Assembly (NCBI RefSeq): GCF_000970305.1 | Contig: NZ_CP009517.1 | Coordinates: forward strand, 744,001 to 808,000 | DNA from: Methanosarcina barkeri 3 | Lineage (GTDB): Archaea; Halobacteriota; Methanosarcinia; Methanosarcinales; Methanosarcinaceae | Length of the DNA: 64,000 bases | Direction: 5' to 3' | Part shown: positions 52,013 to 62,263 of the stretch, piece by piece | How the letters are laid out: each line of letters starts with the position of its first letter | How positions within the stretch are numbered: position 1 is the first letter of the stretch | Made by a program: the position numbers and the translations under genes | Notes under the pieces: generated by a model | Told to the model about the DNA's origin: nothing | The model's input: only the letters and a program-made list of their open reading frames with translations | Databases searched by the model: none

Positions 52013-52914
52013 TCAATTAACATATTTTTCCTTAAACTCTAAAATCTGCTTGTTGCTTCCCACAACTGCAATAGTATCTCCTGCCCTTATTGTTGTCTGC
52101 TTTTTAATAGCAGTTATGATGATTTTTCCGCGTTCTATGCCTACTATAGTACACCCGATCCGTCCTTCCAGGTCAAGTTCTTCTATTGATCTGCCATCAA
52201 GAGGAGAACCCCTATCAACGTGACATTTCTCGATTTCTATTCCCTCGTAAAGCATTATGTCTTCATCGATTCTACAGCTTTTTCCCATGCAGTTTGCAGT
52301 CATTTTGGCAAGCATCTGCCCAGCTACTATGGAAAGAGAACCTACGTAGTCAGCTCCTGCTTTATAGATTTTTTCAATCGATTTTACGGAATTTGCCCTT
52401 GCCACAATGATTAGTTCGGGGTTCAGGTTTCTCGAAATAAGAGTTGCAAAAATAACATTGGTATCATCATTAAGAGCCACAAATACAAAAGAAGCTGTTT
52501 TTACTCCGGCTGCAAGCAGTATATCTTCATCTGCCCCGTTTCCGACAAGATGTTCGAAGTCTATGTTTTCAAAAACCTTCTCATTAGCGTCCACAACTAC
52601 AGTTCGGGGTTCAGGTTTCTCGAAATAAGAGTTGCAAAAATAACATTGGTATCATCATTAAGAGCCACAAATACAAAAGAAGCTGTTTTTACTCCGGCTG
52701 CAAGCAGTATATCTTCATCTGCCCCGTTTCCGACAAGATGTTCGAAGTCTATGTTTTCAAAAACCTTCTCATTAGCGTCCACAACTACAAAACGGAATGG
52801 GCTTCCATAAAGTATATTTACTATGCTCTTTCCAACATCCCCGTATCCCAGTAAGATAAGATGCCCTTTTGACTCCATTTTTGCTCCCATATTCTGTAAA
52901 ATTGCACTTATCAA
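52013..52914 (-). pseudogene. RCK/TrkA protein gene split by a 188-bp duplication
   Basis: The 5' part reads a TrkA-N Rossmann start (GHLILLGYGDVGKSIVNILYG) and stops with TAG at the repeat junction; the 3' part holds the remaining TrkA-N and a TrkA-C domain (SPLDGRSIEELDLEGRIGCT, then TTIRAGDTIAVVGSNKQI). A perfect 188-bp tandem copy (52413-52600 and 52601-52788), not a multiple of three, breaks the frame. Removing one copy restores one frame of 237 residues. The intact protein would gate K+ channels or transporters by NAD(H)/nucleotide binding; it lies downstream of a K+ channel gene with its own RCK domain. Confidence 0.9.
52413..52788. repeat. Perfect 188-bp tandem duplication
   Basis: Positions 52413-52600 and 52601-52788 are identical base for base as far as I can read. 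They begin AGTTCGGGGTTCAGG and end TCCACAACTAC. Complete identity inside a coding sequence means a very recent event, or an assembly artefact. Confidence 0.95.
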
Positions 52915-53039: not shown

Positions 53040-53125
53040 AGCTTCCTCAGTTCAGTTTTGAATACTCAGTCAGTGTGTCAGTTTCTTCAGTTCAATTTTG
53101 AATACTCAGTCAATGTGTCAGTTTC
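53040..53125. repeat. ~44-bp tandem repeat at the 3' end of the K+ channel gene
   Basis: Two and a half copies of a unit with GTCAGTTTCTTCAGTTC and TTTTGAATACTCAGTCA. The stop codon of the channel gene lies in the last, partial copy, so the final residues (EELSKLKKLTH) are repeat-encoded. Confidence 0.85.
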
Positions 53126-54138
53126 TTCAGTTTTGAAAGCTCTTCACGGGTTCCTACAGCTAGCAAAACGGTATTCTCCCTGACAAGATCTTCTTCCTTG
53201 GGGTCAAAAGACAGAGTACCGCTATTCCAGGTTCCTACGATCTTTGCACTCGTGAGATGCTGGTTCGATATTTCCTTAAGCGACTTGCCTATAAGAGGAC
53301 TTTTCAGATAAATAGGGAACTCAACAATATGGACACCATCAAAGATTTCAGTTGCTCCAGTTACCCTGCTTACAAGCCTGTCCATTGCCTTCTTTCCGAT
53401 AAACTGCCCGAACATCGATTTGGGAGAAACGACCGTATCAGCTCCTGCATATTTGAGGTATCTGGTGTTAGATTGGTCTTCAACTATAGCAATAATATTC
53501 ATATGCGGAAATTCCCTGGCAGTCAAAACGATATTTGCATTTCTTTCATCCGATTTATTTGCAATAAGGAGTCTGGCTTTTTCTATACCAGCGTTCATAA
53601 GGGTTTGCTTATCACTCGGAGATCCGAAAATGCAGGGAATGTTTTTATAAACAAGTTCCCTGATGAGCTCTTCGTTTTCGTCAACTATTACAAAAAGCAT
53701 ATCTTCCTCATTAAACTCATCTATCAGGGTTTCAACCAGTTGATTATATCCGCAAATAATTATGTGATCTTTTATGCCGACAGAAACTTTTCTTGGCAGC
53801 CTGAACTTGATAACCCTGTCCACCCAGGGAGTAACAACGTAGGTTACAAGAAAACCCGAAATCAAGACGATACCTGAAAGCTGTACAATTACTGAAAAAA
53901 GTTTCCCTGATGGGGAATTAAAAGCTACATTGCCATAGGTAGATGTTGCCCAGTAGAGTGCAGTTATCGGATCTGCGTTTTCTAACTGGTTCTCAAGAAT
54001 CATCAGGTATTCAAAAATAAATATATAAATAATAAGCACAAGCACTGCTACGATTTTGTACGCAAAATTACGCTTTTTGTGGAGTAACCTCCGAAACCTT
54101 GATCTCAGACCTATTTTTCTTCTTCCTGAGGTAAACAC
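53110..54138 (-). CDS. K+ channel with RCK (TrkA-N/TrkA-C) domain
   Basis: A 342-residue ligand-gated K+ channel. Two membrane helices flank a pore loop ITALYWATSTYGNVAFNS; the usual selectivity filter TVGYGD is here STYGNV, an unusual version that may alter selectivity. Residues 125-250 form a TrkA-N Rossmann domain (KDHIIICGYNQLVETLIDEF), and the last 80 a TrkA-C domain (FPIYLKSPLIGKSLKEISNQ). The neighbouring RCK protein gene is broken by a duplication. Overall similar to MthK-type channels. Confidence 0.88.
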   Translation of the reverse strand: MFTSGRRKIGLRSRFRRLLHKKRNFAYKIVAVLVLIIYIFIFEYLMILENQLENADPITALYWATSTYGNVAFNSPSGKLFSVIVQLSGIVLISGFLVTYVVTPWVDRVIKFRLPRKVSVGIKDHIIICGYNQLVETLIDEFNEEDMLFVIVDENEELIRELVYKNIPCIFGSPSDKQTLMNAGIEKARLLIANKSDERNANIVLTAREFPHMNIIAIVEDQSNTRYLKYAGADTVVSPKSMFGQFIGKKAMDRLVSRVTGATEIFDGVHIVEFPIYLKSPLIGKSLKEISNQHLTSAKIVGTWNSGTLSFDPKEEDLVRENTVLLAVGTREELSKLKKLTH

Positions 54139-56146: not shown

Positions 56147-56243
56147 GGGAATTCTCCGAGTTATTGAGCTGAACAGGTTATAATTAAGCTTAACTATTCA
56201 TGAATTAAACTTAAAGTATTGTTAATCAGGCTAATCAGTTTAG

Positions 56244-56370
56244 CCTGTTAAAGTTGTTAGTTGAACTTCGCCTGTTAAAGTTGTTAGTTGAACTTCGCCT
56301 GTTAAAGTTGTTAGTTGAACTTCGCCTGTTAAAGTTGTTAGTTGAACTTAGCCTGCTAAAGCTGTTAATT
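56244..56370. repeat. 27-bp tandem repeat, about 4.5 copies
   Basis: Four near-perfect copies of CCTGTTAAAGTTGTTAGTTG followed by AACTTCG, then a diverged copy, in the upstream region of the S2P gene. Confidence 0.93.
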
Positions 56371-56874
56371 AAATTTAAACGACTATGAATTAAGCTAAAT
56401 TAGTATAAACTTTATTATAAATTCGGGTATAAATATTAAGTATAAATTTTGAATTAAACAGCAAATACAAGACTGTTGGGAAAAATATGTCTTTAAGTTT
56501 TTACTGTTGATATTATACATCTATAAGCTCTAATATTGTTAATATATAATTGTGCGTCTGAAATTCTGCACCAATTAATCCATCATGTTAAGTTCTAGTG
56601 TTACAATATAGTGTTCTATATGATATGAGAATGTTATAGTGCACCTTACTATTTAAAATCGATATATAATGCCTTCCCTACTTAAAAAGAATCCTATTTG
56701 GAAAAAGGCATATAATAATACATCATAATTATATAAAAAGGTGTATGGAAGTTTATTATGTAATATGTAATAGCCAATATCGAAGCCAATGTTGATAAGT
56801 TCTACAGCCAACGTCCAAAGTTATAAGGCTGGGTAATAGATACTGTGACATGGAGAGTAATGTGCCTTATATTA

Positions 56875-56985
56875 ACCTTGTAAATTAAAGTCTTGTAAAT
56901 AAAGATCTCGTAATTGAATCTTGTAAATTAAAAATCTTGTAAATAAAGATCTTGTAAATTAAAGATCTTGTAAATTAAAGATCCT
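56875..56985. repeat. 16-bp repeats in the cutA leader
   Basis: Imperfect copies of GATCTTGTAAATTAAA, ending some 35 bases before the cutA start codon. Confidence 0.8.
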
Positions 56986-57020
56986 GTTCACGATATCAGA
57001 TTTCCTTGAGGTGTCTGCTC

Positions 57021-57570: not shown

Positions 57571-57653
57571 GCGGGAGTAACCAAGCGGTCAACGGTGGCA
57601 GACTCAAGATCTGTTCGTGCAGACGTTCAGGGGTTCGAATCCCTTCTCCCGCA
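57571..57653 (+). tRNA. tRNA-Leu(CAA)
   Basis: Acceptor arms GCGGGAG and CTCCCGC, discriminator A, D-arm with AACCAAGCGGTCAACGG, anticodon loop CTCAAGA (anticodon CAA, reading UUG), a long class II variable arm (TTCGTGCAGACGTT region) and the T-arm GGGGTTCGAATCCC. All features fit a class II archaeal leucine tRNA without intron or encoded CCA. Confidence 0.95.
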
Positions 57654-57734
57654 CTAAATTTATGAAGATTTTTCTATTTATGATTAATATCTTTCTCTTT
57701 ATTTCTCTAATCTTGTTTTAATTTCAGCTTAGTT

Positions 57735-57813
57735 ACGGTAGGAAATAGGTCAAATACAACAGACTAAAATCTGGCTTTAAAAGAATTCGTGGGTTCGAAT
57801 CCCATCCCATGCA
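57735..57813 (+). pseudogene. Decayed tRNA (leucine-like)
   Basis: GTGGGTTCGAATCCCAT is a good T-arm followed by CCCATGCA, and upstream CAGACTAAAATCTG resembles the anticodon arm of a tRNA-Leu(TAA) with one base lost. The 5' acceptor half and D-arm are degenerate and no longer pair with the 3' end. It lies 80 bases after the intact tRNA-Leu and probably records an old duplication or integration. Confidence 0.6.
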
Positions 57814-58041
57814 TCTGTTTTAAGATATATTCAGTTTTTGAATAACGATTTCCTTAAATTATTGATTTTTTATCAATGGTTTCTTCGTGCTTGGGGTATA
57901 GTTCCGGCGAGTCCACGTAAAAACTTGTAATAATCCTGATTAATGCTACTCTCTTTCAATTTTTCTAACCATCGGTTTCGTATTAATTCTTTAAAATGGC
58001 TCTGCCCGCGAAAAAAATATTTTGGGGAAGAAAGCTCCTAG

Positions 58042-58139
58042 TGTTTTGACAATTTAATTGTTGAGCATAATTTTGGCAGTTTCTCATCATACAACTATTT
58101 TGAGCTCATTAGATTATCAATAACTAAACTTTCATGACA
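58042..58139. mobile_element. MITE-like element, left copy
   Basis: A 98-bp element bounded on both sides by CTAG (58038-58041 and 58140-58143), fitting a 4-base target duplication. Its ends TGTTTTGACAATTT and, inverted, TGTCATGAAAGTTT form imperfect terminal inverted repeats. About 87% identical to the element at 60991-61089, same orientation. It has no coding capacity. Confidence 0.75.
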
Positions 58140-58143
58140 CTAG

Positions 58144-59070
58144 TGTCTAGAAATTCAGTTATGTATCCTTAAAATTAAGAAAGGGATTACGGATAATGTA
58201 TTTCTAAGTATTAATCCCAGTAATTAAATTGCCGTGACAATAGTTACTATCTGCTTCCAAAGTGCCTGTAAATGTGAAAAGAATTTCGGAACTGAAAAAC
58301 AGGAATCTATCAGAAAGCTGGCTTATTCTCAGCTTTGCTGTTGAGTCTTTAGAGTGAAATAGGTAGTAAAAAACATAAGATGTGCTTTGGAAGTACCTTA
58401 AGTGACTTCTAATTGGCTTGACATTTTCCTCATGAAGGCTGAATTTTTAAATAGGGTTACTTCCTGAATTTTAATTGTAGATCCTCCCTATGGATTCAAA
58501 GAAAATATCAAGTAAGGGGGCTTATGAGGAGAGAAAAGCATCACTCAAGGCAAAAAAATCCTTATACTGAGGTTAAAAGGTTAATTCAAAAAAGTTTATT
58601 GAAGCTACCTATTGTAATCTGAACCACATAATACCACTGAAAAGAAAATAACGATTTAAGATAGAGAAATCTCTCCTTCGAGTTAAAAAATTTATTAAAA
58701 AAAGCAAGAGTTAAAAGGTTTAGCATATTAAAAGGTTTTAGTATATTATACTTAAACAGAAAATCATCAATTAATAAAAACTAAACGCACAGGATGTTCT
58801 TCTAATAACAGGCACAAACAAATGAAAGTACTCTACTTTACCCTTCATTGACTTCAATCTCGTCATTACCTTGGGTAGTAAGATTGTCCTAATTTTGGTT
58901 TTTCAAACCACCGCTAAACTAATCAGCGAATTGCCATAGAAGGCTTAAATGTGATAAAGAGAAGAAAATGAAAAAGAGCATGGGTAATCAGTTTTATTCC
59001 GTACTTTTATGTCAAATCAAAGGCAGAGTTCGGGAGTAGAACCCTAGCATTTCCATAAAAACATTATAAT
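58144..59070. other. Long non-coding stretch inside the MITE-bracketed segment
   Basis: About 930 bases without a supported gene. A 26-codon frame at 58491 (MDSKKISSKGAYEERKAS) is too short and without context. The last 100 bases must contain the promoter of the ATPase gene. GC content rises sharply at 59090. Confidence 0.45.
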
Positions 59071-60330
59071 ATGAATGCAAGAAAACCGGAGTTATACGCT
59101 ATGAGTGAAAGAGAACGAAAGACGCCGGCACGCATCGAGTATCTGAGGGTTGAGAACTATCGGGCACTGCGGCAAGTGGAGTTTAAGAACCTTACACCTA
59201 TGACAGTGCTTTTAGGCCCAAATGGCAGCGGCAAGTCTACGGTATTCGATGTTTTCGCTTTCCTTTCTGAGTGTTTTGAATCAGGACTACGCCGAGCCTG
59301 GGATCGGCGGGGCAGGGCGAAAGAACTCAAGACACGGGGCTGTGAAGGATCTGTGGTCATTGAGATAAAGTACAAGGAACCTGGATTCCCGAAAATAACC
59401 TATCACTTAGCTGTGGATGAACGTAAGGGTTCACCGGTAGTAGTGGAAGAATGGCTGCAGTGGAGGCGGGGTACACAGGGTAAGCCCTTCCGATTTATGG
59501 AATACCGCGAAGGCAAGGGCCGTGCCATCAGCGGCGAAAAGCCAGATGAACAGGACAAGAGGGTTGAAATTCCACTTAAATCTCCAGATCTTATTGCCGT
59601 GAATGCTCTGGGTCAATTTGCCGATCACCCACGTGTGGCGTCGTTGCGCGATTTTATTACAGGCTGGCATGTCTCTTACCTTTCGGTAGATGATACGCGT
59701 GGTCAGCCGGAGGCAGGTCCACAGGAAAGACTTTCACGCACAGGTGATAACTTGGCCAATGTCATACAGTACCTAGCCGAGCAACACCCATCACTGTTGG
59801 AACATATATTCGAGGTATTGCGAAACCGTGTCCCTCATGTAGAAAAAGTACTGGCTGAGGCTATGCCGGACGGCCGCCTCCTTCTCCAGATCAAGGACGC
59901 TCCTTTTGACCACCCGGTGCTTGCCCGTTTCGCATCTGATGGCACACTCAAGATGCTGGCTTATCTGGTGTTACTTAACGATCCCGAGCCGCCTTCATTC
60001 ATTGGTATTGAAGAGCCTGAAAATTTCCTTCACCCACGCTTGCTACCCGAACTAGCTGAAGAATGTCGTGCAGCCAGTGCCCGCGGACAATTCCTTGTCA
60101 CCACCCATTCACCTTTTTTTGTCAACGCTCTGAGACCTGAGGAGGTTCGCATACTTTACCGCGATGAACGAGGGTACACCCAGACAGTCCGAGCGGCAGA
60201 TATCCGGGGCATCCCGGAATTTATAGATGCTGGCGCTTCGCTGGGATACTTGTGGCTGGAAGGGCGTTTTGGAAGGGGAGATCCACTGGTAAACCAGGGA
60301 GCACCATCACGCAAAGGGGGGAAGCCATGA
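59071..60330 (+). CDS. AAA ATPase (OLD/SMC-like), defence candidate
   Basis: A 419-residue ABC-class ATPase: [20 protein letters not shown], Walker [17 protein letters not shown] (residues 47-62), the Walker B region [19 protein letters not shown], and the H-loop [16 protein letters not shown]. No coiled-coil arm of SMC length, so it is like the AAA_15/AAA_21 ATPases. It overlaps (ATGA) a small TOPRIM-like protein gene. Such ATPase plus DUF4276/TOPRIM pairs are known as defence-like cassettes, comparable in layout to PARIS (AriA/AriB) and OLD systems. GC content is well above the surroundings, a sign of transfer. ATG 59101 is an alternative start; neither has an SD. Confidence 0.85.
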
Positions 60331-60938
60331 ATACCAGACATCTAGAAATCATGGTAGAAGAACCCTCCATGGAGGCATTTCTTAGGGAATTACTTCCCCG
60401 AATGCTTGGAGACAAGGTGAGCTTCGAGATTTACCCCTTCCAGTGCAAGAATGACCTACTTTCCAAACTTTCCTCTCGACTGAGAGGTTACTCCTGCTGG
60501 CTTCCGTCAGACTGGCGCATAGTCGTGGTTGTGGATAGGGACGATGAAGACTGCCGTGAACTCAAACAAAGGCTGGATGACATAGTCCTTCGGGAAGGCC
60601 TGAGCACTCGCTCAAGCGCCTCCACCCGTTGGCAGGTGGTTAACCGAATCGCCATCGAAGAACTCGAAGCCTGGTATTTTGGGGACTGGAATGCCGTCAA
60701 ACGTGCCTATCCTAAAGTTAACGCAAATATTCCTCAAAAAGAAGCATACCACAATCCAGATTCCATATCTGGCGGCACCTGGGAAGCCTTTGAGCGGCTG
60801 ATGAAGAAGGCAGGCTATTTTGAGGGGGGCCTGCGCAAAATAGAAGTTGCACGCAAGCTAGGCTACCAAATAGATTGGAAGCACAACAGTTCTCTCAGCT
60901 TTCAGTATTTCCGGGATGCAGTCCTGGAAATCCTATAA
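60327..60938 (+). CDS. DUF4276/TOPRIM-like protein, partner of the ATPase
   Basis: A 203-residue soluble protein with a TOPRIM-like N-terminal part: [19 protein letters not shown] supplies the conserved Glu, and [20 protein letters not shown] the DxD(D) motif. The rest ([20 protein letters not shown]) fits DUF4276. TOPRIM proteins coordinate Mg2+ and act as nucleases or effectors. Start ATG overlaps the ATPase stop and follows AAAGGGGGGAAG. A start further upstream inside the ATPase is unlikely. Probably the effector of the pair; inferred from analogy with other ATPase/TOPRIM systems. Confidence 0.8.
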
Positions 60939-60990
60939 ATGTCTAAGATAGAGCCGGTTGCAATTTGTATAGTTGAAATAACAGTACTAG

Positions 60991-61089
60991 TGTCTTGGCA
61001 ATTCAATTGTTGAGCATGATTTTGGTAGCTTCTCATCAGCATATAACGATTTTGAGCTCATTAGATTACTAATAACTAAATTTTCATGA
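60991..61089. mobile_element. MITE-like element, right copy
   Basis: A 99-bp copy of the element at 58042-58139, bounded by CTAG at 60987-60990 and 61090-61093. Ends TGTCTTGGCAATTC and TTTTCATGA. It lies between the TOPRIM-like gene and the relic of a type I restriction locus, 31 bases before the hsdM start codon. Confidence 0.75.
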
Positions 61090-61123
61090 CTAGGCTGCAA
61101 GCTAGACTTATAGAGGAATAATA

Positions 61124-61608
61124 ATGATCACAGGTGAACTGAAAAACAAAATCGACCGCATATCAATGCCGTAATCCATAAGCTTCGGATGAATATTCCA
61201 TTGACAGCAACTGATCTTGATGAACTGGAGCGGATACTCTCTGAAAGTGGGTTTGGAGGGCCGGAAGAAATCGCCCGTGCCAAACAGGTATCAAACGGAC
61301 TCGGACTCTTCGTGCGTTCACTCATAGGGCTTGATAGGGAAGCTGCAAAACAGTCGCTTGCCACATTCCTGGCAGGTAAGACCCTGACTGCAAACCAGAT
61401 AGAGTTCATAAACCTGATCATTAACCATCTTACCGAGCACGGTGCAATGGATGTAGCATTACTTTACGAATCACCATTTACTGACCTTACACCACAGGGC
61501 CCGGATGGGCTTTTTACCTCAACTCAAATTGATGAATTGATAGTCACATTGGAGAGGATTACGGCAACAGCATTAGTGCCCCCATATTCGCAACAAATTA
61601 TTGCTTGA
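61124..61608 (+). pseudogene. Type I restriction relic: hsdM start joined to hsdR end
   Basis: ATG 61124 with SD AGAGGA reads MITGELKNKIDR, the usual N-terminus of HsdM. Then, one frame over (from 61159), it reads HINAVIHKLRMNIPLTATDL, then ERILSESGFGG, GLFVRSLIGLDREAAKQSL, LTANQIEFINLIINHLT and ALLYESPFTDLTPQGPDGLF, the EcoEI-type C-terminal domain of HsdR. Everything between (most of hsdM, hsdS, the HsdR motor and nuclease) is gone. A single deletion joining the first 12 codons to the last 150 explains it. A stretch of 139 codons from ATG 61189 remains open and might still be translated. Confidence 0.85.
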
Positions 61609-61861: not shown

Positions 61862-62263
61862 TTAAGGCTTCACAGTATCAATCAAGTCCAGAATTCTCAG
61901 AGCAAGATGTGCACCGTTTGCTCCGTTATCTATCCCTACGCTTCCTACAGGCACTCCTGGGGGCATCTGGGCAATGGAGAGCAGGGCATCGAGTCCGCCA
62001 AGCTTCGCGCTAACAGGGACTCCGACTACAGGTCTTTTTGTTCTGGAAGCTACAACCCCTGGAAGGGCTGCAGACAAACCTGCAATCGTAATAAAGACCT
62101 TTGCATCGGTGCTTGAGATGTAGCTTTCAAGTTCGTCAGGGTTCCTGTGAGCAGAAATGACCATTACTTCGTAAGTGTATTTGCTCTTTTCAAGTACGGA
62201 TACCGCACGGTTGGCGATAGACCTGTCGGATTCGGAACCCATAATTATTGAGATATCAACCAT
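61862..62263 (-). CDS. purE: N5-CAIR mutase / AIR carboxylase catalytic subunit
   Basis: A 133-residue PurE of purine biosynthesis. It has the start [32 protein letters not shown], the Gly-rich region [19 protein letters not shown] and [20 protein letters not shown], then [11 protein letters not shown]. Archaeal PurE of this size catalyses the carboxylation step to CAIR. It lies 20 bases after the aroQ stop, in one operon with aromatic amino acid genes. Confidence 0.95.

Follow-up and report, generated by a model that had tools for sequence, protein, structure and literature searches.

Next to purE, the chromosome of Methanosarcina barkeri 3 carries the outermost 5' and 3' pieces of a type I restriction-modification (RM) operon, joined to each other out of frame. 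We consider it very probable (roughly 0.93) that this scar is the recent remnant, left by a single deletion, of an hsdM-hsdS-hsdR operon that stood beside purE in the common ancestor of this genome (G000) and three relatives (G003, G004 and G029). The scar lies in a window of 64,000 nucleotides (contig NZ_CP009517.1, positions 744,001 to 808,000 of the forward strand), to which all coordinates refer unless a locus is named; G000 itself is assembled as a single 4.56-Mb contig and is 99.99% complete. The locus offers a base-precise example of the loss of a type I system in an archaeon. Pseudogenes left by deletion within defence hotspots are already known as a kind, and the case itself is ordinary but clear.

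The former hsdM start codon is an ATG at 61124, preceded by a GAGG motif, as read directly from the sequence. The 53 bases from 61111 to 61163 are identical to the hsdM start of G003 at 52 positions (E 1e-21) and to that of G029 at 51 positions (E 2e-20). These matches confirm what an initial annotation, made from the letters of the window, had described as an hsdM start with its Shine-Dalgarno sequence fused out of frame to an hsdR end. Its counts of 12 hsdM and 150 hsdR codons need correction to 13 codons plus one base and 147 codons plus the stop. The frame opened at 61124 runs through the 13 hsdM codons, continues for three foreign codons and ends at a stop at 61172-61174; positions 61124 and 61171 lie 47 bases apart, and the hsdM and hsdR parts are thus out of frame. 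The hsdR remnant matches the Pfam domain EcoEI_R_C (PF08463) with an E-value of 2.8e-25, and over 145 residues its protein shares 93, 92 and 91% amino acid identity with the HsdR ends of G004, G029 and G003, respectively.

Relative to G029, 5705 bp are missing at the junction, relative to G003 7791 bp. Every junction base can be assigned to either hsdM or hsdR, with zero foreign bases, and G029 also has the AAT codon of hsdR that adjoins the junction. Comparison with the present relatives G003 and G029 revealed no clear case of microhomology at the junction, and the exact ancestor may differ from both. In G000, no hsdM match was found at E 1e-30, and a search with a 145-residue HsdR query at E 0.01 returned the tail itself as sole match. 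The HsdM start and the HsdR end belong to the same family as type I systems with an EcoEI-type HsdR (PF08463), of which G003 and G029 hold operons. In contrast to such systems with complete hsdM, hsdS and hsdR, G000 retains only the two outer ends, 13 and 147 codons long, and no functional subunit.

Table 1. Features of the scar and its surroundings in the window, and comparable scars in bacterial genomes (given as locus:coordinates).
Feature	Position	Strand	Basis or remark
tRNA-Leu (CAA), left edge of variable region	57571..57654	+	ARAGORN
MITE-like repeat, second copy left of cassette	58038..58138	+	
Leader-like sequence before HEC-01	58605..58725	+	resembles a stretch ~150-280 bp before the hsdM of relatives
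HEC-01A ATPase (AAA_21/AAA_15)	59071..60330	+	PADLOC HEC-01A, E 2.6e-162; Pfam
HEC-01B DUF4276 protein	60327..60938	+	PADLOC HEC-01B, E 2.2e-88; Pfam PF14103
MITE-like repeat directly upstream of hsdM start	60987..61090	+	
Shine-Dalgarno GAGG of former hsdM	61113..61116	+	inside 53-bp match to G003/G029 hsdM starts
hsdM, first 13 codons plus one base	61124..61163	+	identity to the starts of the complete hsdM genes of L129 and L130
Deletion junction	61163..61164	+	ends of the two flanking matches; missing lengths by arithmetic
hsdR, last 147 codons plus stop	61164..61608	+	part of EcoEI_R_C domain
139-aa ORF within hsdR remnant	61189..61608	+	ATG internal to hsdR
purE, right edge of variable region	61862..62263	-	Pfam AIRC
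hsdM-5'/hsdR-3' scar	L056:1279-2453		same MAG as L058
hsdM-5'/hsdR-3' scar	L058:8407-10356		far more hsdR left than in other scars
hsdM-5'/hsdR-3' scar	L074:9514-10408		Zeimonas arvi, strain record
hsdM-5'/hsdR-3' scar	L107:9555-10405		

Evidence for a former operon comes from the same place in related genomes. The comparison covered 30 genomes of the genus, with G000 among them; all possess purE, and 15 match the hsdR tail at E 1e-10. Besides G000, the tail is convergent to purE in three of them, G003, G004 and G029, which are other species than G000 and differ from it at 45-55 of 435 tail bases. Beside purE, G029 (locus L130) encodes HsdM, HsdS and HsdR proteins of 512, 405 and 1146 aa, and G003 (L129) has the order hsdM-hsdS-extra gene-hsdR. 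This extra gene matches the PADLOC models Orf5, HEC-06 and SspE, and we take such proteins to be of the DUF262 type. Both parts of the scar are collinear with these full operons at the orthologous position, and the junction holds no leftover bases; the internal deletion of a type I locus that had been proposed is thus supported, by operons in species other than that of the window. The purE side agrees as well: the spacer between purE and the hsdR stop can be aligned among G000, G003, G004 and G029. In G004 the tail at purE is itself shortened, to 216 aa, by a cut that lies 75 codons from that of G000 in hsdR and is independent of it.

The defence cassette that the initial annotation had placed beside the fossil is indeed present and corresponds to the PADLOC candidate HEC-01: the ATPase and DUF4276 genes are adjacent, overlap at 60327-60330, and both proteins match the models strongly. 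Its arrival as a separate, later landing, as had been assumed, is weakened by the gene order in other genomes. The ATPase was matched in six of the 30 genus genomes (E 1e-15), closely in G000, G011, G019 and G023, as a fragment in G001 and distantly in G009, the DUF4276 protein in G000, G011, G019 and, distantly, G009. Both genes thus occur in G000, G011 and G019, and the ATPase alone in G023. In all five genomes with a close or fragmentary ATPase, hsdM or a 5' stub of it follows downstream on the same strand within 0.2 to 4 kb; the contig of G011 ends within hsdM, and in G019 (L164:8301-11111) the two HEC-01 genes are followed only by a 22-codon hsdM stub. This placement ahead of hsdM or a stub of it distinguishes the Methanosarcina pairs from the PADLOC candidate as such. 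Around the distant pair of G009, no hsd match was found within 18 kb, and 11 of the 15 hsd-bearing loci searched, some of which are short contigs, gave no HEC-01 match. Judged from gene order, HEC-01 is therefore associated with hsdM, yet it is not a rule for hsdM.

Because HEC-01 is linked to hsdM in other genomes, cassette and fossil may represent one association and not two landings. That both arrived at purE together, as one composite, would be compatible with the deletion itself, and we regard it as a tentative reading with somewhat worse than even chances. While it is favored by the downstream hsdM or stub in five of five genomes, no HEC-01 match was obtained in the purE-linked hsd loci of G003 and G029, the pair is reduced to the ATPase in G023 and to a fragment of it in G001, and G004, G025 and G027 hold other defence loci at this spot. 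In either case, HEC-01 persists past the loss of hsd in G000 and G019, which suggests that this candidate system can work on its own. A sequence search against the PDB listed PtuA and an OLD-family ATPase among the matches of the HEC-01 ATPase and nothing convincing for the DUF4276 protein, whose structure, predicted from one sequence, was set aside at a mean pLDDT of 47. In the open-licence PMC literature, we found no paper on DUF4276, alone or tied to defense or restriction-modification, and none on HEC-01 with PADLOC.

The fossil was also thought to mark a repeated landing site for defence genes. On its own it is insufficient for this claim, and HEC-01 is linked to hsdM elsewhere, as described above. 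However, as far as gene content tells, the place that in G000 lies between tRNA-Leu and purE does hold as a site of defence-gene turnover in the clade of G000 (G000, G003, G004, G013, G025, G027 and G029), because different defence loci occupy it in G004, G025 and G027. Six of the seven clade genomes have defence genes or CRISPR arrays next to purE: HEC-01 and the scar in G000, the hsd operons in G003 and G029, the 216-aa hsdR tail together with a type I-G CRISPR-Cas locus (cas3g, cas8g, cas7g, cas5/6g, cas1g and cas2g models) in G004, about 20 CRISPR repeats that reach the purE flank in G025, where the stretch is partly masked, and a different type I RM system with two PADLOC candidate genes in G027, where a single degenerate CRISPR repeat also marks this point. 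In G013, no defence gene was recognised beside purE when the gene list was read by eye. The different, unrelated loci were established by comparing other genomes at purE, and a shared left flank is shown only for G000, G004 and G029: the tRNA-Leu flank is common to these three, at 11-14 kb from purE in G029 and G004, lies elsewhere in G003, and is found on other contigs than purE in G025, G027 and G013.

On the 3' side of purE, 20 of the 30 genomes have a gene that, read by eye, we presume to be dph6. It was not found in G009, G019 and G020, where G009 has what we take to be other housekeeping genes in its place, G019 is covered only over 1.5 kb and the contig of G020 ends. Likewise, dph6 was not found beside purE in the examined stretches of the seven clade genomes. 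In 11 genomes outside the clade, gene lists read by eye revealed no recognisable defence gene in the interval from purE to dph6 or, for G009, to the genes found there instead. Thus, a defined place in one Methanosarcina clade emerges at which defence loci appear to replace one another; a description of a hotspot at tRNA-Leu/purE was not found in open-licence PMC papers. As a separate observation, G027 contains to the left of its RM system (L195:3679-3764) a second tRNA-Leu copy, the 3' part of which is 98% identical while its 5' end is different; this copy is possibly an integration footprint.

Comparable arrangements are known from bacteria. In the immigration control region of Listeria monocytogenes, the RM systems between two genes vary by lineage according to a survey of 872 genomes (PMC10059834). 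The likeness consists in a fixed chromosomal place with differing RM systems, whereas the Methanosarcina site is archaeal, adds CRISPR-Cas and HEC-01, adjoins tRNA-Leu and is based on seven clade genomes as opposed to 872. The defence hotspots of Escherichia coli resemble it in holding diverse defence cargo at fixed chromosomal sites (PMC10121019).

Taken together, we propose the following history. The ancestor of G000, G003, G004 and G029 would have carried an EcoEI-type hsdMSR operon next to purE, and one illegitimate deletion would have fused hsdM codon 13 to hsdR at 147 codons before its end. The methylase and the specificity subunit would have disappeared simultaneously with almost the entire motor-nuclease; since all subunits would have been lost at once, there would have been no stage in which restriction outlasted modification. 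The event may have been harmless. What is left would yield a peptide of 16 residues at most and perhaps an inert HsdR tail, and the HEC-01 pair, which probably was associated with the hsd operon, would have survived its loss. A deletion in two steps instead of one is possible. Furthermore, a tree of 18 genomes, built from the stretch between purE and what we take to be a kinase gene, joins G000 with G025 and G027 (100/100) and G029 with G003 and G004 (95/95), followed by G013 and then G012. G025 and G027, the nearest relatives, are without hsdR at purE, which speaks against the proposed history insofar as it needs either losses there or recombination into G000. In addition, the ancestor is known only from relatives, one of which (G004) is itself truncated.

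The other question is whether the HsdR tail is a gene in its own right. Counting that of G000, the genus has 17 tail matches, and for 12 of them the surrounding frame is 1143-1168 aa long. Among the 16 other than G000, 14 belong to longer hsdR frames; two of these, L012 (957 aa) and L007 (315 aa), are cut and start at a contig edge; L017 is a broken piece of 73 aa with a stop, close to a contig edge. Only G000 and G004 have tails that are shortened inside a contig. A class-wide search of 216 genomes at E 1e-20 matched 18, namely the 15 of the genus and three of one other genus of the same family (L211, L212 and L213 in G099, G102 and G100), in which an hsdR tail stays open over about 95 codons and the DNA is about 97% identical; left of this tail, the DNA of G100 is unlike that of G099 and G102. 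When the best 80 of 377 relatives (genome_contigs) were considered, 61 frames reached at least 850 aa, 5 were cut by the locus end and 14 were short. Consequently, the sequences related to the remnant mostly belong to complete hsdR genes, as the deletion reading of the initial annotation would have it, and the ORF of 139 aa or 147 codons is most likely not a stand-alone gene.

The tail shows dN/dS values of 0.089-0.105 between G000 and G003, G004 or G029, compared with 0.071-0.083 among the latter three and 0.052-0.148 for the other computable pairs without G000. The changes specific to G000 comprise 13 synonymous and 4 nonsynonymous ones, those specific to G029 10 and 3, which are small counts. 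As the dN/dS of the G000 tail is not clearly raised, the deletion is probably recent, and little or no decay of the tail seems to have occurred yet.

A dN/dS near 0.1 and an open frame of 147 codons would also be compatible with residual selection on a small protein with its own start that might, for example, interfere with incoming type I enzymes. The 216-aa tail retained at the same place in G004 and the open tails of the other genus fit such a protein, as does the C-terminal piece of the 14 short frames (from the best 80 of 377 relatives), which in 7 cases starts at HsdR residue 934-967. However, this clustering near residue 935 may only mirror a weakly conserved stretch that precedes it, the ATG of the ORF is internal to hsdR, and the prevalence of long frames, the separate cuts of G000 and G004 and the differing DNA left of the tail in G100 speak against a conserved small gene. 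Thus, we judge a selected stand-alone protein to be improbable.

The same type of scar is found elsewhere. Among the 14 short frames, a 5' part of hsdM is joined to a 3' part of hsdR in four loci of three bacterial genomes, and according to the coordinates all four are out of frame, as in G000. Five further frames have a deletion within hsdR (L060, L089, L090, L115 and L116), two appear frameshift-like (L084 and L112), and three are without N-terminus (L070, L088, which is near a contig end, and L120). Since the query was an hsdR end, this sample is biased toward scars that retain it. One might speculate that G000, G004 and the other genus retain the tail as a small protein, which would compete with the HsdR of incoming type I enzymes, and that hsdM-5'/hsdR-3' scars represent a selected end state, but we give this idea very little credit. 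An assembly error or chance short matches, for which only the shortness of the hsdM part speaks, can practically be dismissed given the single-contig genome and the 53-bp match, which reaches at least E 2e-20 and has the expected position and order.

Besides the scar, the surroundings of the cassette show some features of their own. The MITE-like repeat has imperfect inverted ends and seven matches of at least 65 bp in G000, the two copies of the window counted, all on the + strand. Directly upstream of the hsdM start of G000, where one copy of this repeat is located, no hsdM leader was found. Of 15 hsdM starts examined in relatives, 9 are preceded by a match to the leader-like sequence that stands before HEC-01 here (E 1e-10 or better). 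A search of four genomes showed that this sequence is not dispersed as a repeat in them; G007 has an additional copy beyond hsdR. We considered that HEC-01 had been inserted between the hsdM leader and hsdM. G000 fits this arrangement, but G019 has a partial copy before HEC-01 and a fuller one before hsdM, and we set the idea aside.

Further to the left, a degenerate tRNA-Leu-like sequence (57738-57813), which ARAGORN does not call, follows on the 3' side of the true tRNA-Leu, and short tandem repeats occupy the noncoding DNA left of a cutA-like gene (56240-56380 and 56870-57000). An ORF at 53110-54138, presumably ion-channel-like, is altered in the stretch that resembles a selectivity filter in G004. 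Finally, a gene at 52407-52914, which we take to resemble an NAD-binding potassium-transport protein, appears to be broken by an internal tandem duplication and is a single undivided ORF in G004.
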